Part shown: positions 7,164 to 57,178 of the stretch, piece after piece | Numbering within the stretch: the first letter of the stretch is position 1 | Layout of the letters: every line of letters begins with the position of its first letter | NCBI RefSeq assembly: GCF_902143375.2 | Contig: NZ_CABFVA020000012.1 | Coordinates: 1 to 64,000, forward strand | Direction: 5' to 3' | Source of the DNA: Methylacidimicrobium tartarophylax | GTDB taxonomy: Bacteria > Verrucomicrobiota > Verrucomicrobiia > Methylacidiphilales > Methylacidiphilaceae | Length of the DNA: 64,000 nucleotides | Program-made: the position numbers and the translations under genes | The notes under the pieces: generated by a model | Seen by the model: the letters and a program-made list of their open reading frames with translations, nothing else | Databases searched by the model: none | What the model was told of the DNA's origin: nothing

Positions 7164-7170
7164 TGTAACC

Positions 7171-7350
7171 AGCCTGTCTCACAAGCGTTCTCCTGCGGCT
7201 TGCTAAATGGGCCTGTCTGCTTCGTTGGGACTTGGTTTCCTTTCCTCGCAGGTTGTCGTCATACCGTTTCGGGGGAAAAATCTGCGCCCCGCCTTGCATC
7301 CAGGCCCATCGGCCCGCGCCTCGGGTACGAACTTTGTGAGCCATGCAGGT
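7171..7350 (+). repeat. Dispersed palindromic repeat, copy A
   Basis: About 180 bases nearly identical to copy B and, inverted, to copy D. The right end reads TTGTGAGCCATGCAGG, while the left end (AGCCTGTCTCACAAG) has lost four bases relative to the other copies. Internal arms ATGGGCCTG and CAGGCCCAT are exact inverted complements. It fills the space between the convergent ends of thiG and yihY. No ORF of its own is credible. Confidence 0.88.
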
Positions 7351-8331: not shown

Positions 8332-8512
8332 ACCTGCATGGCTCACAAGCTTTCTCCTGCGGCTTGCGCAATGGACCTGTCTGCTTCGTTGGGACTTGGT
8401 TTCCCCTCCTCGCAGGTTGTCGTCATACAGCTTCGGAGGAAAACCTGCGCCCCGCCTCGCATCCAGGCCCATCCGCCGCGCCTCGGATACGAACTTTGTG
8501 AGACATGCAGGT
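8332..8512 (+). repeat. Dispersed palindromic repeat, copy B (full length)
   Basis: A 181-base element with terminal inverted repeats ACCTGCATGGCTCACAA and TTGTGAGACATGCAGGT, 16 of 17 positions complementary. Inside it has the shared block CTTCGTTGGGACTTGG and the nested arms GGTTTCCCCTCC and GGAGGAAAACC. It has the same orientation as copy A and sits between yihY and dnaB. The rest of the 373-base gap 8237-8609 shows no gene or clear signal. Confidence 0.9.
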
Positions 8513-23777: not shown

Positions 23778-23871
23778 GGGAAGAAAGACAATAAGGAAGC
23801 GAGAAACGACTGTCAAGCCTGCTGCATCCACTCTTCTTGATTCCCGCGTTCCTTCCCCCGTTTCTTCCTAA

Positions 23872-23925
23872 GCCGCCATTGCTCACAAAGTTCGTAGCCG
23901 AAGCGCCGCAAATAGGCTTGCATTC
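23872..23925 (-). repeat. Relic of the dispersed repeat (one end only)
   Basis: About 54 bases matching the outer end of the repeat family: GCTCACAAAGTTCGTAGCCG followed by AAGCGCCGCAAATAGGCTTG, comparable to copy D from 56291. The terminal CCTGCAT is degraded. The other two thirds are absent. It lies in the 216-base gap between the hemerythrin terminator and rplM. Confidence 0.6.
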
Positions 23926-23968
23926 GAGAAAACACGACGGGGCCGGGCACGCAGCGCGCCCGACCCCG
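23926..23968 (-). terminator. Probable intrinsic terminator of the bacteriohemerythrin gene
   Basis: A GC-rich stem pairs 939-948 with 958-967 (offset 23000): GGGGCCGGGC against GCCCGACCCC, one mismatch and a nine-base loop. Read on the minus strand the stem is followed after about eight bases by TTTT. It sits 26 bases past the hemerythrin stop. Confidence 0.5.
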
Positions 23969-24401: not shown

Positions 24402-24726
24402 AAGGCGAGTTTTCTCTTCGCCTGATTCTTCGGTCAATCTTCCCCCACTCGGTCATCCCACGGTATTAATTTAGCATGAAGTTCAGGGTGGTAACCGGTC
24501 TTTCCCTCAGGATGTGCGCGGGCATTTCCTCAGTTCTCGATCCAACGCTTTAGCCTGCATGTCTCACAAGGTACGTACCCGAGGCGCGGCGGATAGGCCT
24601 GGGCCCAGATTTTCCAAAGTCCGCCTAGACGGGAATCGGCGTTTGATCTACGTTTTCGTGTTTTCTTCTCGCAGAAGAAAGAGGTGAGCAAGAGAATATC
24701 CTCCTGGCAGATATCCTCCAAGCGAT
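24402..24726. other. Divergent intergenic region between hemerythrin and ilvB
   Basis: A 325-base gap that must hold promoters for both flanking genes. It includes a repeat relic (24552-24612) and an AT-richer stretch near 24462-24478 (TATTAATTTAGC) that could be part of the hemerythrin promoter. I see no small gene and no leader peptide rich in branched-chain codons before ilvB. Confidence 0.5.
24552..24612 (-). repeat. Relic of the dispersed repeat with intact terminal inverted repeat
   Basis: It begins with a perfect AGCCTGCATGTCTCACAA end, followed by GGTACGTACCCGAGGCGC and GGATAGGCCTGG, matching copy D for about 60 bases, and then diverges. Only the one end remains; the rest of the element is missing. 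Confidence 0.75.
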
Positions 24727-34612: not shown

Positions 34613-35161
34613 ATGGCACAAGAATCCGTCTTCTTAACTCGAACCGTGGATGCGGTACAGATCCCCAGCGGCGCGCCTATCCAACTTCAGAAGGACAAGC
34701 CGGTGGTGATCACGCAATCCCTCGGCGGATCGTTCACTCTCTTGTACGATGCCCGCTCCCTGGTACGCCTGGATGCCAAGGATGCCGACGCCATCGGCCA
34801 AGCCTCGCGTGCGGAGGAGTCCGGGGCTCTGCCTCAGCCCGGGGCGCACGTGGATGAGGAAATGGTCTACAGCCGCCTCCGAGAGGTTTTCGACCCGGAA
34901 ATACCCGTCAATATTGTCGACCTGGGCCTGATCTACGACTGCCAGATTCTCCCTCGCGAAGAGGGCACCTTCGAGATCGTGATCAAGATGACGCTCACCG
35001 CTCCCGGCTGCGGCATGGGTGTCGTCATTGCCCAGGATGCCCAATCCCGCATTCGACAAATTCCCAACGTGGCGGATGCTCGTGTCGATCTGGTTTGGGA
35101 TCCGCCATGGAACCCAGGGATGATCAGCGAGCAAGGCAAGATGCAGCTCGGGCTGATCTAG
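34613..35161 (+). CDS. sufT: SufT-family Fe-S maturation protein (MIP18/DUF59 domain)
   Basis: A 182-residue protein. Its N-terminal 75 residues (VQIPSGAPIQLQKDKPVVITQSLGGSFTL) match the SufT-specific extension and the rest is a MIP18/DUF59 domain with EVFDPEIPVNIVDLGLIYD and the conserved Cys in MTLTAPGCGMG. SufT acts in maturation or carrier steps of Fe-S proteins. It is the last gene of the suf operon. sufS and sufA/sufE are absent here. Confidence 0.88.
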   Translation: MAQESVFLTRTVDAVQIPSGAPIQLQKDKPVVITQSLGGSFTLLYDARSLVRLDAKDADAIGQASRAEESGALPQPGAHVDEEMVYSRLREVFDPEIPVNIVDLGLIYDCQILPREEGTFEIVIKMTLTAPGCGMGVVIAQDAQSRIRQIPNVADARVDLVWDPPWNPGMISEQGKMQLGLI

Positions 35162-35206
35162 CCCCCATTTCTCGCAAATTTCGTAGCCGAGGCGCGCCGG
35201 CTTAAC
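35162..35206 (-). repeat. Relic of the dispersed repeat (one end)
   Basis: CATTTCTCGCAAATTTCGTA followed by GCCGAGGCGCGCCGGCTTA resembles the first 45 bases of copy D. It fills the gap between the convergent sufT and amidase genes. Confidence 0.5.
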
Positions 35207-46396: not shown

Positions 46397-47862
46397 GGAA
46401 AGTTTCCCTCCGATGGAAAGTCGCTCTCCTCACGGGAGCGACGGTGGGGCTTGCGCTCGCCCTCGTCGGAGCGGTCGCCGACTGGACCCTTTATCGTAAG
46501 CTCGTCGAAGAGGCGGATCTCCAGATGACATCGGATGCGCGGGAAATGGTTTCGGCGCTGAAGAGCCCGCGATTGCTTTCCAAGGGAAAGCTTCCCGAGA
46601 ACCTGGAGGGAGAGGAGAGCAACCTATGGGAGATTGATCGGGTGGGAGGAGCAGTCCTCTATCGAGCGCCGTTTTTTAAGACGCAGCATCGACTGGCGAA
46701 GGACGGCTTTCGCTTTTTGTCGATCGGGAAGCAAAGCTTTCGTGTTCTGGTGGTCACCAAGGGGGGGTATCGATTGATGCTCGGGCGAGACACGCGGCTT
46801 CAGAAGGCGATCCTGCAAAAGGCGGAAATTGCCTACCTTCTTTCATTTCCTCTCGCCCTGGCTATCGCCATTTGGGGAGGATGGTATCTTTCCGGATATG
46901 CCTTACGGCCGGTTCGAGCGATCGCCGCGGCTGCGGAGAAGATCGGTCCCCATGCCCTCCATGGGCGAGTCGAAATTCCCTCCGAAGATCCAGACTTGGC
47001 ACGGCTCGCCCAAATCCTGAACGCGATGTGGGAGAGGATCGAAGCCGCGTTCGAGCAGGAAGCGCGATTGACGGCCGATGCCTCCCACGAGCTTCGAACC
47101 CCGCTGACGATCCTTCGGAATCAGTTGGAGGCCGCACTGACCGAATCCAAGGGACGCCCATTCTCGGGAGAAGAAGTCTTTCTTTCTCTCTTGGAGCAGG
47201 TGAAGCGGTTGACCACGATCACCGAGAACCTTCTTTTTTTGTCCCATGCCGAGAGCGGTCAGCTTCGGCTGCGCAAGCAGCCCGTCGATTGGAGTAAGAT
47301 GGTGGAGGAGGTGGCCGAGGACGCCCGCCTTCTTGCGGTTCCCTCGGGCCTTTCCGTTGCAAGCTCGATTCCTCCCGGACGATGGATCTCCGGAGACGGA
47401 GAGCTTCTGCTTCGCCTCCTTTGGAATCTCGTGGATAACGCGGTGAAGTATAATACGGCCGGCGGCTCCATCTGGATTACGCTACTAGAAGATGACTCGT
47501 GGCTGATCTTGAGCGTCTCCAATACCGGCCCGATCATCGAGGCGGCGGACCAGGCGGAAATCTTTCGACGTTTCTACCGGGCGCGAAGTGCCCGAGACAG
47601 TCAGGCCAGGGGCAGCGGACTCGGCTTGAGCCTTTGTCGGGAGATCGCGGCCCTCCATGGAGGGGAAATTCGGTACGACAATCCGGCCGAAAACTGGAAT
47701 CGCTTCACGGTCTGGCTCCCAAAGGGAGAACCCCAAGGGCCGGGTCGTGAGCCCGCCTCGACCACCGACAATGCCCCATCGAATCGATCTTTTGTCGCCG
47801 CCAAGAATGCGACTCAGGCGGAGGCCGGCCGAAGCGCGATCCACTCAGTGCGTTCTGGGTGA
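46393..47862 (+). CDS. Sensor histidine kinase
   Basis: A 489-residue membrane kinase. One transmembrane helix lies at about 8-31, a periplasmic sensor at about 32-142 and a second helix near 145-166; a HAMP domain follows (LRPVRAIAAAAEKIG). The phospho-His is in TADASHELRTPLTILRNQLE, the N-box in WNLVDNAVKYN and the G-box in GSGLGLSLCREIAALHGG. The architecture is CusS-like but no metal-binding residues stand out in the sensor. The 3' end overlaps the convergent duplicated gene by 18 bases. Confidence 0.92.
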   Translation: MRKVSLRWKVALLTGATVGLALALVGAVADWTLYRKLVEEADLQMTSDAREMVSALKSPRLLSKGKLPENLEGEESNLWEIDRVGGAVLYRAPFFKTQHRLAKDGFRFLSIGKQSFRVLVVTKGGYRLMLGRDTRLQKAILQKAEIAYLLSFPLALAIAIWGGWYLSGYALRPVRAIAAAAEKIGPHALHGRVEIPSEDPDLARLAQILNAMWERIEAAFEQEARLTADASHELRTPLTILRNQLEAALTESKGRPFSGEEVFLSLLEQVKRLTTITENLLFLSHAESGQLRLRKQPVDWSKMVEEVAEDARLLAVPSGLSVASSIPPGRWISGDGELLLRLLWNLVDNAVKYNTAGGSIWITLLEDDSWLILSVSNTGPIIEAADQAEIFRRFYRARSARDSQARGSGLGLSLCREIAALHGGEIRYDNPAENWNRFTVWLPKGEPQGPGREPASTTDNAPSNRSFVAAKNATQAEAGRSAIHSVRSG

Positions 47863-49551
47863 GAGAGTCGGCTCCGAGAACGGCAGAGAAACTTTCTGCG
47901 TCCTTTCGGTCGAGGGCGAAAATGGAGGAACGTTCGGGACGGGGATGCGAAGGGCTATCTCTCGGCAGAGTTCGTCTTCCGCTCTCTTGAGCGTGATGTC
48001 GCGAAGGAATCCGGCCGCCAAAACCGACGAGATCGCGATATCGATCGGAAAAATGGCCGGAAGAAGTGTGGAGTCCTGCCGTTGACCAGTCACCTCGATG
48101 AGGGTGCGACCGGTGCGCCCCGATGCGATCCTTACCCGAAGCCCGACCCGCCAGGCGGAGTAGAGCAAGGCGTAGATGGCTACGGAGTCTTGCACCTCTC
48201 CGTAGACAAGCGCGTCGACGCCGAGCCAGTCGGCTACCCGTTCTACTTTCTCGCGGAGCATGTCCCCTGCCGTGTGCCAGCCCATTTGCTGTAGGATCAT
48301 GTCCGTGAGAGCGGGGCTCTGCACCCAGAAATCCCTCTGCCCGAGGTAAGTTGCCATTCCGCGCCGAAGACGGTTGGCCGTCGTCCACTTCCAGCGGTCC
48401 TGCTCAGCCCGGGAACGAGGTTTGGCGGGGACGCCGTTGAGGAGAAAGTTTCCCCCGGTTGCCCGATCGACGAAGGGAAGAACGGCGAGTTGGAACGGTC
48501 GGTCGGTCGCCAGATCCGGAGAGGCGACGGTTTGGAATCGCGAGGGATCCAGATCGATCAGGTAGTCGAGGGGATTTTTTTTCCCGTGGGTGGATTCCTG
48601 CTGCTCGGGGAGAAAAAAGCGCTCCGGGGGAAGATTCGAGAGGGAAGAGGAATTCCAGGGACGCAGGGGAACGCGGAAGGCGACAGCAGGAAGAGCGCCT
48701 TTTTGGGGAGAAAGCGCGGGACTGGTGATCACCGGCAGTGCCTTCTGCACGATATCGGTCGCGGAGCGGGCCGATCGGGGCGGATGCGGGACGCGAACGA
48801 CAAGCTCGCGACAGGCCTCGTCTTCTCCCCGTCGCAGGGTGACATCCCGCAAATGGACTAGATTAGCGATAGAGGCAAGGGCAAGATCGATGGGATTGGT
48901 TGCGATCCGGAGCCCGATAATGTTGCGGGTGGCGGTGCCCGAAAAGATTTCGCAGCCCGAAATTGCCGAGACCATCCTGATCGACAGCGTCACCCTCCAA
49001 CCGGCGGCGAGGAGCATATAATAGCTGCGATAGGTCGAGAGCTTGCCGTAAACAAGAGTATCCGCATCCAGGAAGCGACCCAGGAGCTGCGGTTCTGTGT
49101 CGTCGAGGAGCCGGTCGGAAGAGATCTTGTGCGCGGCGAGGGTAGCGTCAACTAGGGCCACTGGGATGAGGTCGAATTCTCGCGCCGCGAGATAGCCGTG
49201 AACCATTCGACGAAGCCTTTGCGAGTGTGTCCATCGCCATATGTCCAACGCCTCCCCTCTTCGTCCCGGCCATCGGATTTCGTTGAGCACATAACTGCCG
49301 GTTCCCTCGTCGATAAATGGGAGCACGGCGATTCGGCAGGGGGCCGACTCCGCATAGTTCGGACTGATCTGGACGAGACAAGAACCCGGATCGGGGTCCA
49401 TGGCATAGTCATACCAGCGCTTTCTGCCATGAAAGTCGGCACCTTCTTCCTGAAGGAAGAGGCGTTGGTCCTCGGTTTCTTCCGCCGCCAGACAAGGAAC
49501 GACAAAAAGGAAGAGCCCAAGGAAAAAGGAGACGAGAAAACTAATCTGCAT
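47845..49551 (-). CDS. Exported protein with two tandem GNA1162-like domains
   Basis: A 568-residue protein with an N-terminal signal sequence (FLVSFFLGLFLFVVPCLA). It holds two homologous units, about residues 45-258 and 328-545. Each starts with DYxxDxDP, followed by (I/L)AVLPFxD, RLRRxMxxYLxxRxF, a D(A/T)LVYGx(L/V) segment, a GWRV or AWRV segment and (L/T)LRDxTL(R/K)RxED. This pattern resembles the GNA1162/DUF799 family of outer-envelope lipoproteins. The cysteine at residue 20 follows VVP, so a lipobox is doubtful. It faces the two-component system; a regulatory link is possible. Confidence 0.7.
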   Translation of the reverse strand: MQISFLVSFFLGLFLFVVPCLAAEETEDQRLFLQEEGADFHGRKRWYDYAMDPDPGSCLVQISPNYAESAPCRIAVLPFIDEGTGSYVLNEIRWPGRRGEALDIWRWTHSQRLRRMVHGYLAAREFDLIPVALVDATLAAHKISSDRLLDDTEPQLLGRFLDADTLVYGKLSTYRSYYMLLAAGWRVTLSIRMVSAISGCEIFSGTATRNIIGLRIATNPIDLALASIANLVHLRDVTLRRGEDEACRELVVRVPHPPRSARSATDIVQKALPVITSPALSPQKGALPAVAFRVPLRPWNSSSLSNLPPERFFLPEQQESTHGKKNPLDYLIDLDPSRFQTVASPDLATDRPFQLAVLPFVDRATGGNFLLNGVPAKPRSRAEQDRWKWTTANRLRRGMATYLGQRDFWVQSPALTDMILQQMGWHTAGDMLREKVERVADWLGVDALVYGEVQDSVAIYALLYSAWRVGLRVRIASGRTGRTLIEVTGQRQDSTLLPAIFPIDIAISSVLAAGFLRDITLKRAEDELCREIALRIPVPNVPPFSPSTERTQKVSLPFSEPTLSPRTH

Positions 49552-49569
49552 TGATCACGAGGCTTTGGC

Positions 49570-49726
49570 TTTCGACTTGCAGAGCGGATTCGCCTGCTTC
49601 GCTCTCCCTGGATTTCCCTCCCGGCGGTATGTCTTCCTAGCGCTCCGGGGGAAAACCGGCGCCCCGCCTCGTATCCATGCCTATTTGCTTTTTCTCGGGT
49701 ACGAACTTTGCGGGACATGCAGGCTA
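49570..49726 (+). repeat. Dispersed palindromic repeat, copy C (left-truncated, diverged)
   Basis: The right part GGGTACGAACTTTGCGGGAC plus ATGCAGGCT matches the common right end, and CCGGGGGAAAACCGGCGCCC matches the inner arm. The left terminal repeat is missing and the centre is more diverged. It fills the gap between the GNA1162-like gene and the end of hisC. Confidence 0.75.
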
Positions 49727-53678: not shown

Positions 53679-54968
53679 ATGAAACTTGCGATCATTGGTT
53701 CCGGATACGTCGGGCTCACGACAGGAGCTTGCTTTGCCGAAGTAGGCCACGATGTGCTTTGCGTGGACAGCGATCAGGCGAAGGTGAAGAGCCTACGGGG
53801 AGGGAGCGTTCCCTTCTATGAGCCGGGCTTGGAAGCCATGATTTCGAGGAACGCGGCCTTGGGGCGACTCCGTTTCGGGGAGTCCGTGGCGGAGGCAGTG
53901 GAGAACTGCCTGGCTCTCTTCATCGCCGTCCCGACCCCGCCCCATGCGGATGGCAGCGTCGACCTCCATTACGTGGAGAAGGTGGCTCGCGAGATCGCCG
54001 GCTCTCTCCGGGAGTACCGGGTCATCGTCGATAAGAGCACGGTTCCCGTCCGGACAGGGGAGAAGGTGGCCCAGACGATCGAGCGGTACAGCAAGCAGAA
54101 GGCAGAGTTTGACGTGGTGAGCAATCCCGAATTTCTCCGGGAAGGCTCGGCAATCGCAGACCTGATGAACCCGGATCGCATCGTGATCGGCTCCTCTTCG
54201 GAGCGGGCCACCGCGATCATGAAAGAGGTCTATGGACCCTTTCGGACGCCGATGTTGATCACGGATTTGAATTCCGCGGAACTCATCAAGCACGCGTCGA
54301 ACAGCTTCCTGGCTCTGAAGATATCTTACATCAACATGATCGCGCAGATTTGCGAGGCTTCGAACGCGGACGTGCTCCTCGTGGCCGAAGGGATGGGCCT
54401 GGATCGGCGAATCGGGCGTTCCTTTCTGCAGGCGGGAGTCGGATGGGGGGGCTCCTGTTTTCCGAAGGACGTCTCAGCGTTCATCCGGATCGCCGAGGAG
54501 TTGGGCTGCGAATTTCGTCTGCTGAAGGAGGCCGCGTCGATCAATGAGGAGCAGAGGGAGCACTTTTTGAAAAAGATTCGCGAGGAGATCTGGCTTCTTC
54601 GCGACAAGACGATTGGTCTGCTGGGACTGGCGTTCAAGAACAACACGGATGACACGCGGCAAAGTGTCGCCATGGCTTTGGCGGAGTCCTTCCTCAAGGA
54701 AGGAGCCGTGGTTCGCGCTTTCGATCCGAAGGCGATGGCGAAGGCGGAGCAGCTTCTCCCGAAACTTCAGCTCTGTTCCTGCGGAGAAGACGTCGCTGCG
54801 GGTGCCGATTGCGTCGTAGTGGCCACGGAGTGGGAGGAGTTCCGGGACTTGGATTGGCTCGCCATGAAAAAGCGGATGCTGAGCCCGCTGGTTTTCGACG
54901 GACGCAATCTCTTGGACCGGGAAAAGATGGCGGCCTGGGGGTTCTCGTATCGCGGTGTCGGTCGATAA
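53679..54968 (+). CDS. ugd: UDP-glucose 6-dehydrogenase
   Basis: A 429-residue NAD enzyme making UDP-glucuronate for polysaccharides. It begins KLAIIGSGYVGLTTGACFAE; catalytic Cys lies in GVGWGGSCFPKDVSAF; FLALKISYINM and GLAFKNNTDDTRQSVAM are typical. GGGAGG is seven bases before the ATG at 53679, fixing the start. It overlaps the purA start by 14 bases. Confidence 0.94.
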   Translation: MKLAIIGSGYVGLTTGACFAEVGHDVLCVDSDQAKVKSLRGGSVPFYEPGLEAMISRNAALGRLRFGESVAEAVENCLALFIAVPTPPHADGSVDLHYVEKVAREIAGSLREYRVIVDKSTVPVRTGEKVAQTIERYSKQKAEFDVVSNPEFLREGSAIADLMNPDRIVIGSSSERATAIMKEVYGPFRTPMLITDLNSAELIKHASNSFLALKISYINMIAQICEASNADVLLVAEGMGLDRRIGRSFLQAGVGWGGSCFPKDVSAFIRIAEELGCEFRLLKEAASINEEQREHFLKKIREEIWLLRDKTIGLLGLAFKNNTDDTRQSVAMALAESFLKEGAVVRAFDPKAMAKAEQLLPKLQLCSCGEDVAAGADCVVVATEWEEFRDLDWLAMKKRMLSPLVFDGRNLLDREKMAAWGFSYRGVGR

Positions 54969-56256
54969 CGGACAGTGGGTGAGCGGAGTGAATACGGTTC
55001 TTGTGGGAGCCCAATGGGGAGACGAGGGAAAAGGAAAGATCATCGATTTCCTCACGGGAGATGCCAACGTCGTCGTCCGCTGCCAAGGAGGGGATAACGC
55101 CGGCCACACGGTGAAGGTGGAAGGCGAACAGTTCGTTCTCCATCTGATTCCTTCGGGAATCCTCCGGAGGGAGAAGGAGTGCGTGCTCGGCAACGGAATG
55201 GTCATCGACCCGATCTCGCTCGTAGACGAAATCGAGGGCCTGACCGCCCGTGGAATTGCCCCGAAGGGCAGGCTTTTCCTTTCGGACTCCGCCCACTTGG
55301 TCTTGCCCTATCACCGGCGCATGGACGAACAGTTGGAAAGCCTTCGCGGCAAGAAGAAACTCGGAACGACGGGCCGCGGCGTCGGCCCCGCTTACGTCGA
55401 CAAGGTGAGCCGCACCGGGTTGCGGGCTCACGATCTGTTGGAGCCGAAGGAGCTTCGGAGCAAGCTCGAAGAGAGAATCGAAGAGAAGAATCGGCTCCTC
55501 TCCTTTCTGGGAGCTCAGCCGATCGACGCGGAAGACGTGATTCATCGCTGTTCGGGCGCGGCGGATTTTCTGCGCGAGATGATCGTGAACACGGCGATCT
55601 GGCTCACCGATGCGATGCGGGACGGGAAAGACATGCTCTTCGAATGTGCTCAAGGCACCTTTTTGGACATCGACTTCGGAACCTACCCTTATGTCACCTC
55701 CTCCAACACGACGGCGGGAGGGGCGGTCACGGGGACCGGCGTACCGCCGCACCGCATGGACCGGGTCGTCGGCTGCCTCAAGGCGTATACCACCCGGGTG
55801 GGTGCCGGCCCGATGCCGGTGGAATCGGCCGAGCTGGCGGCTCTGCTGCATCGGAGCGGACGGGAGTTCGGAGCGACGACGGGCCGGGCTCGGCGATGCG
55901 GCTGGTTCGATGGGGTGATGAGCCGTTACTCCTGTCTGATCAATGGATTCGACGAGCTTGCCGTAACCAATCTGGACGGCCTCGACACGCTTTCGACGAT
56001 CCCCGTTTGCCTCGCTTACGAGTGGCGAGGGCGACGTCTTTCTCATCCCCCGACCTCCGCGGCGCAGTGGCAGGAGTGCACGCCGGTCTATAAGGAATTT
56101 GAGGGCTGGAGGCAGCCGACGTCCGATGTCCGACGCTTCGCCGACCTGCCGGATCTTGCCAAACAATATCTGGATGCACTCTCCGAGTTGACGGGATCTC
56201 CGGTCCGCTTGGTCTCTGTGGGAGCAGGAAGGGAGCAGACGTTCCTTGTCGAATAG
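54955..56256 (+). CDS. purA: Adenylosuccinate synthetase
   Basis: A 433-residue GTP-dependent enzyme joining IMP and aspartate on the way to AMP. The P-loop-like VLVGAQWGDEGKGKIIDFL, RCQGGDNAGHTV, GTTGRGVGPAYVDKV, AQGTFLDIDFGTYPYVTSSN and TTGRARRCGWFD are present. The GTG at 54955 overlaps ugd; other GTGs at 54979 and 54988 are possible, and no site decides. A repeat copy follows 25 bases after the stop. Confidence 0.95.
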   Translation: MSVDNGQWVSGVNTVLVGAQWGDEGKGKIIDFLTGDANVVVRCQGGDNAGHTVKVEGEQFVLHLIPSGILRREKECVLGNGMVIDPISLVDEIEGLTARGIAPKGRLFLSDSAHLVLPYHRRMDEQLESLRGKKKLGTTGRGVGPAYVDKVSRTGLRAHDLLEPKELRSKLEERIEEKNRLLSFLGAQPIDAEDVIHRCSGAADFLREMIVNTAIWLTDAMRDGKDMLFECAQGTFLDIDFGTYPYVTSSNTTAGGAVTGTGVPPHRMDRVVGCLKAYTTRVGAGPMPVESAELAALLHRSGREFGATTGRARRCGWFDGVMSRYSCLINGFDELAVTNLDGLDTLSTIPVCLAYEWRGRRLSHPPTSAAQWQECTPVYKEFEGWRQPTSDVRRFADLPDLAKQYLDALSELTGSPVRLVSVGAGREQTFLVE

Positions 56257-56281
56257 AAAGGCGAGGTCGAGCGCGGATCCG

Positions 56282-56464
56282 AGCCTGCATATCTCACAAA
56301 GTTCGTACCCGAGGCGCAGCGAATGGATCTGGATGCAAGGCGGGGCGCAGGTTTTCCCCCGAAGTTGTATGACGACAACCTGCGAGGAGGGAAAACCAAG
56401 TCCCAACGAAGCAGTTGGATCCATTTCGCAAGTCGCAGGAGAACGCTTGTGAGACATGCAGGCT
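56282..56464 (-). repeat. Dispersed palindromic repeat, copy D (full length)
   Basis: A 183-base element with ends AGCCTGCATATCTCACAA and TTGTGAGACATGCAGGCT, complementary at 17 of 18 positions. The inner arms ATGGATC (56322-56328) and GATCCAT (56429-56435) pair exactly, as do GGTTTTCCC (56353-56361) and GGGAAAACC (56390-56398). The orientation is opposite to copies A-C. The last nine bases encode the first codons of uppS. Confidence 0.92.
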
Positions 56465-57178
56465 AAACCCCCGACCCACGTTGCCATCATCATGGACGGA
56501 AACGGCCGATGGGCTCGCGCTCGGAATCTTCCGCGCGTCGAAGGGCATCGAGCCGGCTTCGAGGCTGCCCGGGAAGTCGTGCGCACCGCGGCGGAAATCG
56601 GGATCGGTTTCCTCACCCTCTATGCTTTTTCGGTAGAGAACTGGAAGCGTCCGGTCAAGGAGGTGAACGCCTTGATGGAACTGCTGAACAGCTTCGTCGA
56701 GGAAACGGAAGCTGAGTTGATTGCCAACGAGGTGCGCCTGAAGGTGATCGGCAGGGTTGCCGATCTTCCGGCGGGCTTGCGGGAGAAGATCGATGCGTTG
56801 ACGCTTCGGACGGCGGAAAAGAGCAAGCTTACCCTCTCGCTCGCCCTCAGCTATAGCGGCCGGATCGAGATTGTTACGGCGGTTCGGCGTCTGACTCGGG
56901 ATGTTTTGCACGGGCGCCTGCGGCTGGAGGAGATCGATGAGACCTCTTTCCGCCGCTATCTCTACACCGGCGACGATCCCGATCCGGACCTGCTGATTCG
57001 AACGAGCGGGGAGATGAGGCTCAGCAATTTTCTCTTATGGCAGATCTCCTACTCCGAGATCTACTTCACCGACGTTCTCTGGCCGGACTTTCGACGAGAG
57101 GCGTTCCTACGGGCCGTGGAAGAGTATGGGAGAAGACAGCGGCGATTTGGCCAGCTCGAGAGGGAGGAGTTCGAATGA
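56456..57178 (+). CDS. uppS: Isoprenyl (undecaprenyl) diphosphate synthase
   Basis: A 240-residue cis-prenyltransferase building the lipid carrier for peptidoglycan. It has HVAIIMDGNGRWARARNLPR with the catalytic Asp, GHRAGFEAAREVV, LTLYAFSVENWKRP and the C-terminal DPDLLIRTSGEMRLSNFLLWQ with YSEIYFTDVLWPDF. The only usable start is the ATG at 56456, which lies in the right terminus of repeat copy D; an in-frame stop is two codons upstream and no ribosome site is seen. It overlaps cdsA by four bases. Confidence 0.94.
   Translation: MQAKPPTHVAIIMDGNGRWARARNLPRVEGHRAGFEAAREVVRTAAEIGIGFLTLYAFSVENWKRPVKEVNALMELLNSFVEETEAELIANEVRLKVIGRVADLPAGLREKIDALTLRTAEKSKLTLSLALSYSGRIEIVTAVRRLTRDVLHGRLRLEEIDETSFRRYLYTGDDPDPDLLIRTSGEMRLSNFLLWQISYSEIYFTDVLWPDFRREAFLRAVEEYGRRQRRFGQLEREEFE

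Follow-up and report, generated by a model that had tools for sequence, protein, structure and literature searches.

A ~180-bp MITE family in the methanotroph Methylacidimicrobium tartarophylax, most likely moved by an IS1380-family transposase

In this study, we concluded that the repeat dispersed through the window (the whole 64-kb stretch of Methylacidimicrobium tartarophylax DNA that was analysed) is a non-autonomous MITE of ~180 bp without a transposase gene, a fresh example of an already known class, the prokaryotic MITE, and that it is most likely bound and moved by a DDE transposase of the IS1380 family. The element is dispersed in many copies, duplicates a YTAR target, has an empty site in a sister species and, in the copies examined, spares coding segments, and there is a resident IS1380 with similar ends and the same duplication; from these sequence features we infer that the IS1380 transposase is its mover. 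In the model that we propose, an IS1380-family transposase would bind the 16-bp ends of the MITE, and the element would insert into YTAR with duplication of 4 bp. Its long palindrome would be a hairpin architecture passed on by descent, with no host function under strong selection to maintain it. At the copy beside uppS (copy D), insertion would have cut the gene off from its old start region, and an ATG in the element end would have taken over.

The first-pass annotation had reported four full copies and three relics in the window, and all were recovered by nhmmer and a motif scan, with seven matches to the core motif against 0.21 expected. Copy D, the reported copy (56284..56462, plus strand, 179 bp), is an imperfect palindrome over its full length, as seen from the family-profile nhmmer search, its fold and the empty site in the sister species. 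Its terminal inverted repeats, located from the sequence and a half-site scan, lie at 56284..56299 (plus strand, CCTGCATATCTCACAA) and 56447..56462 (minus strand, CCTGCATGTCTCACAA). The left target duplication (56280..56283, CGAG) has decayed from YTAR, judging by comparison with the empty site, and the right one (56463..56466, CTAA) is supported by both the sequence and the empty site. The other three full copies are on the minus strand and were placed by nhmmer, gene calls and Pfam, together with the ORF list for copy C. Copy A (7169..7349) separates thiG (stop 7163) from a BrkB-family gene (stop 7361) that converges on it, copy B (8333..8511) lies between a dnaB-like gene and the same BrkB-family gene, and copy C (49545..49723), which is diverged and flanked by CTAA/CTAG, is upstream of a GNA1162-like gene. 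The copies annotated earlier were real, but the start given for copy C, 49570, was ~25 bp too far in. The three relics are single ends on the plus strand (23871..23928, 24552..24615 and 35160..35199; nhmmer). Terminal inverted repeats of 17-18 bp were real as described, and the inner arms were present, as ATGGGCCTG/CAGGCCCAT in the 7169 copy and ATGGATC/GATCCAT in the 56284 copy. The window had been described as free of transposases, and matches to the IS1380 transposase were absent from its whole contig.

The flanks of the copies carry the signature of target duplication. In the complete chromosome of a sister species (G006), 34 of 44 testable copies had identical 4-bp flanks, whereas 10,000 rounds with shuffled partners averaged 13.4 and never exceeded 23. 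The matching pairs fit YTAR (CTAG, TTAA, CTAA and TTAG), and TCAA, TTCA and ATAG pairs were found too. Relatives had been proposed as the place to look for empty sites, and copy D was indeed missing from the uppS site of another sister species (G002), where the flanks are joined and the 4-bp target is single and unsplit. The sequence there is GCGGGTC-CAAA-ACCCCC, against GCGGATC-CGAG-[element]-CTAA-ACCCCC in M. tartarophylax, and the flanks of the two species share ~88% DNA identity. A second empty site, less exact, was found at locus L027. The earlier suggestion of a non-autonomous MITE gained support from the target duplications and the empty site, from a possible mobiliser whose ends match, and from the recent expansion seen in a sister species. 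Palindromic, extragenic sequences in many copies are also typical of REP/BIME repeats (GTAG/CGTC-tagged), and the element might accordingly be a single-strand palindrome element of the REP/RAYT or IS200/IS605 type. We regard this as highly improbable, since the MITE has a 4-bp target duplication and 16-bp inverted ends resembling those of DDE-type IS, and its ~180 bp contrast with the 20-40 bp given for REP in the available part of PMC3733652.

The MITE was widespread beyond the window. The notion that copies might occur only there was overturned by at least 42 matching places in the M. tartarophylax genome (2.33 Mb in 137 contigs; E<=1e-3, with 40 of 155 candidates scored) and by 142 terminal half-sites at three or fewer mismatches, compared with 0 for the reversed pattern used as a control. 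The best 30 copies in this genome were 77-92% identical to copy D, and the aligned copies diverged on average by 5.6% and 11.4% from two subfamily consensuses, so that they look older than the copies of G006. In that chromosome, ~47 full copies were present in roughly half of the sequence (~1.2 of 2.3 Mb, in stretches picked partly for holding copies, which applies to all G006 statistics here), and most were almost identical, indicating a recent burst. Of 59 further genomes drawn from the genus, its family and its order, the congeners G003 and G006 alone carried full copies, and three more, two of them congeners, gave short weak matches; the MITE was not found in the rest of the 59. It was absent or a relic in four congeners and in all other genera searched, and the family is probably limited to a few species within one methanotroph genus, Methylacidimicrobium; a pmoA/amoA-family gene (PF02461) was present in both M. 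tartarophylax and G006. No sequence similar to the MITE was found in plasmids, and a 25-base end pattern had no exact match in viral contigs. Many M. tartarophylax contigs terminate within an element, as would be expected of a repeat that interrupts assembly. A longer collapsed element behind these contig ends was considered and rejected, as they are only assembly breaks at repeats.

A transposase with the same ends had been suggested as a further point to check, and the search led to IS1380. G006 carries an IS of 1,710-1,714 bp (~1.71 kb) whose transposase belongs to the IS1380 family (NF033539, E=2.5e-118; PF13701, E=2.9e-152). The ends of this IS are CCCCCATTTCTCACCA, CCGCCATATCTCACCA or CCCCGATTTCTCACCA, and eight copies have exactly duplicated flanks of CTAG, TTAG or ATAG, so that a 4-bp YTAR duplication is common to the IS and the MITE. 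The 16-bp ends of the MITE, CCTGCATGTCTCACAA in one subfamily and CSGCCATTTCTCACAA in the other, are similar to the IS1380 end CCSCCATTTCTCACCA, agreeing with the closest IS end at 12/16 bases in subfamily A, 14/16 in G006 and 15/16 in subfamily B of M. tartarophylax. The MITE differs from the IS in having no transposase and in its interior, which showed no significant similarity to IS1380 outside the ends; the MITE therefore did not arise simply by internal deletion of the IS1380 found. A different transposase whose ends are similar may lie in the other half of G006 or in regions missing from the M. tartarophylax assembly. In the ~1.2 Mb of G006 that were sampled, pairs of matching ends 1.2-3 kb apart proved to be only IS1380 copies or fortuitous pairings with adjacent MITEs, and one such pairing encloses an IS1182 copy.

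The IS1182-family element raises the possibility that the MITE is moved by some other resident transposase. Of the six IS1182 copies found in the G006 stretches, most begin straight after YTAG and three abut a MITE or IS1380 end, but the left end of IS1182, CAGCCTGTCGG, is unlike the MITE ends, which the IS1380 ends match, and we consider such a mover very unlikely. The IS1182 copies that lie straight after CTAG beside a MITE or IS1380 end are at ~358618, 857282 and 1941111 of G006 (L189:18618, L206:17282 and L229:11111), and different element families thus pile up at one duplicated target in this chromosome.

IS1380 looks active in sister species. Full-length open transposase frames were also found in G001 and G003, and similar ends in G003 and M. 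tartarophylax; G001 has three intact frames, and the MITE was not found in it, which speaks against IS1380 as the mover. In M. tartarophylax, contig C52 holds a near-complete IS1380 with 95% DNA identity, similar ends, CTAG flanks and a frameshift near codon 52, which is the sole near-complete copy in the assembled draft, where further copies may exist. A decayed relic of an IS1380 transposase, with stop codons and ~66% protein identity to the G006 copy, was also seen in this genome (C70:14073-14635, L327). No recognisable IS1380 transposase was found in G002. IS1380-type ends are present there, five of them ~110 bp from contig starts (C90, C140, C141, C162 and C191; positions ~105-124), which suggests IS1380 copies left unassembled in the draft.

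The palindrome itself has to be weighed against a different reading, namely a structured regulatory repeat (RNA or cruciform) under host selection, such as a terminator or 5' leader, which we judge unlikely. The fold is very stable (z ~-8), with the RNA of copy D predicted to form one full-length hairpin of -89.2 kcal/mol against a shuffled mean of -54.4 (z = -8.6). The copies are also slightly more stable than expected from randomised decay, the inner part reaching -89.9 against -86.8 +/- 1.0 and -93.3 against -90.9 +/- 1.2 kcal/mol for random placement, an excess of 2-3 sd, or ~3 of 90 kcal/mol, with the substitution spectrum fixed. Compensatory change in the inner arms had been taken in the first-pass annotation as a sign of selection on the fold, and this found weak support. 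When partners were permuted within the same pair type, double compensatory changes were in clear excess in the terminal repeats (8.4 vs 4.4) and in marginal excess in the inner arms (8.3 vs 4.8, P ~0.03, a rough value like the next one, both coming from one tree and one pair set derived from the same copies). Breaks of inner-arm pairs, however, were as frequent as with permuted pairing (130.9 vs 132.9), with a slight reduction on internal branches alone (17.2 vs 20.7, P ~0.007). Under a tree-aware, R-scape-like null (39 copies, 503 substitutions), no structural pair fell below E<0.05, the best being columns 80-112 (E ~0.05), and the covariation was confined to an aggregate excess, mainly in the terminal repeats. 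Pairing did not go with a consistently lower rate of change, as paired and unpaired inner sites changed at rates of 0.113 and 0.095 in one subfamily and 0.040 and 0.068 in the other. At columns 47-147, the pair that separates the two arm examples given above, most copies have G-C or a G-U wobble and three have A-U. The excess in the terminal repeats is explained by a shared transposase, which accounts for symmetric ends, and the covariation of the inner arms supports selection on the fold weakly. We therefore read the symmetry of the ends as strong and that of the inside as reflecting at most a weak constraint or template-switch correction. The regulatory reading is further opposed by Rfam, which matched only two tRNAs in the window, by the surroundings of copy D, where a single weak terminator-like site and nothing resembling a promoter were found, about the level of shuffled sequence, and by the lack of full copies in most congeners, which indicates no conserved host role.

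Genomic placement bears on the same question. With genes called by a home-made hexamer score and no standard gene finder, no full copy among those examined lay within a coding segment, though 60% of YTAR sites are coding, as expected if selection removes such insertions. Copies were enriched between convergent genes, where 19/45 (42%) lay as opposed to 22% of the non-coding YTAR sites (p=0.003), a bias that would suit a regulatory repeat but also fits the removal of insertions that damage promoters. The stop codon of a gene lay inside the target duplication in 15/47 copies of G006 and 9/31 of M. tartarophylax. An insertion preference for stop codons was rejected, because stop codons make up 222 of the 802 non-coding YTAR sites (28%) in any case.

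ISEcp1, ISPme1 and IS1247 are members of the IS1380 family. In the available parts of the sources, a 5-bp duplication is recorded for IS1247, unlike the 4 bp of the MITE (PMC3281130), and IS1380 members are described as having outward promoters and mobilising adjacent genes, including resistance genes (PMC9330008). Like the prokaryotic MITEs Correia/CREE, MITEAba12, QMITE1 and RUP, the present element is short, non-coding, intergenic and hairpin-forming, with terminal inverted repeats, target duplication and probable movement in trans; it differs from them in its likely tie to IS1380, and its YTAR target differs from the TA most commonly used by CREE according to the part of PMC9330008 at hand. 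A distant parallel, by description, is the eukaryotic piggyBac superfamily, whose conserved 4-bp target, TTAA, is among the MITE targets, and a piggyBac phylogeny takes IS1380 transposases as the outgroup (PMC10813416, in part). IS1380 does not figure in a 2024 review of MITEs in prokaryotes (PMC10969869), and no IS1380-derived MITE is described in the available parts of PMC9330008, PMC10813416, PMC3281130 and PMC3542288. The novelty of the link is provisional, as the literature was covered in part. The result would connect a high-copy MITE family in a verrucomicrobial methanotroph with IS1380, whose members are known more for their mobilisation of resistance genes.

Besides the 180-bp form, M. 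tartarophylax has derivatives of ~118 bp (seven seen), 123, 94, 92, 86, 74 and 47 bp (L308-L318, L320 and L326, on contigs other than that of the window), all of which keep both ends and are roughly palindromic. Matching flanks were found on several of them, CTAG/CTAG at 92 and 118 bp and TTAG/TTAG at 74 and 47 bp. Because derivatives down to 47 bp carry target duplications, the ends probably suffice for mobility, and the series from 47 to ~180 bp hints at the minimal DNA needed by the transposase. Together with the IS1380 link, it makes end recognition by IS1380 directly testable. The short derivatives look as if the 180-bp form had lost its hairpin tip or symmetric parts of its arms, and deletion or template switching across the hairpin would fit the joint loss of matching arm parts.

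One insertion concerns uppS, an essential cell-wall gene. Copy D lies between purA (adenylosuccinate synthetase, 54955..56256, plus strand; Pfam PF00709, E=2e-167), whose stop is intact before the element, and uppS (undecaprenyl diphosphate synthase, 56456..57178, plus strand; Pfam PF01255, E=1e-84), whose ATG (56456-56458) is in the right terminal repeat. The outward strand of the element ends TGA GAC ATG CAG G, and with the in-frame TGA two codons before it, this ATG is the first possible start of uppS. Translation from it gives MQAKPPTHVAIIMDGNGRW, and the stretch ahead of the conserved motif offers no other usual start codon. The uppS frame of G001, G002 and G005 continues open further upstream, where a TTG overlaps the purA end; the original start region thus seems to have been displaced by the insertion. 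The ATG of the element, the only plausible start, would now serve uppS as a one-off co-option and not as a general function, giving a documented case of an essential gene whose start codon comes from the end of an inserted MITE. The GNA1162-like gene (47845-49551, minus strand) is a probable second capture: the first start possible for it, ATG 49551, falls within the terminal repeat of copy C and leads into a signal-peptide-like stretch. In the predicted fold, the uppS ATG pairs with the left end of the element, and regulation of uppS through ATG sequestration is conceivable. A bolder and rather doubtful idea is that the ends act as portable start codons, the outward ATG after an in-frame TGA being taken by uppS, and probably by the GNA1162-like gene, and paired in the hairpin, so that downstream translation would hinge on the presence of the left arm in the transcript. 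The supply of start codons as a general function was rejected, because among gene starts facing an element the ATG was in frame and open at 3/37 ends in G006 and 5/30 in M. tartarophylax, which is chance level. Several ORFs beginning in an element were spurious by coding score.
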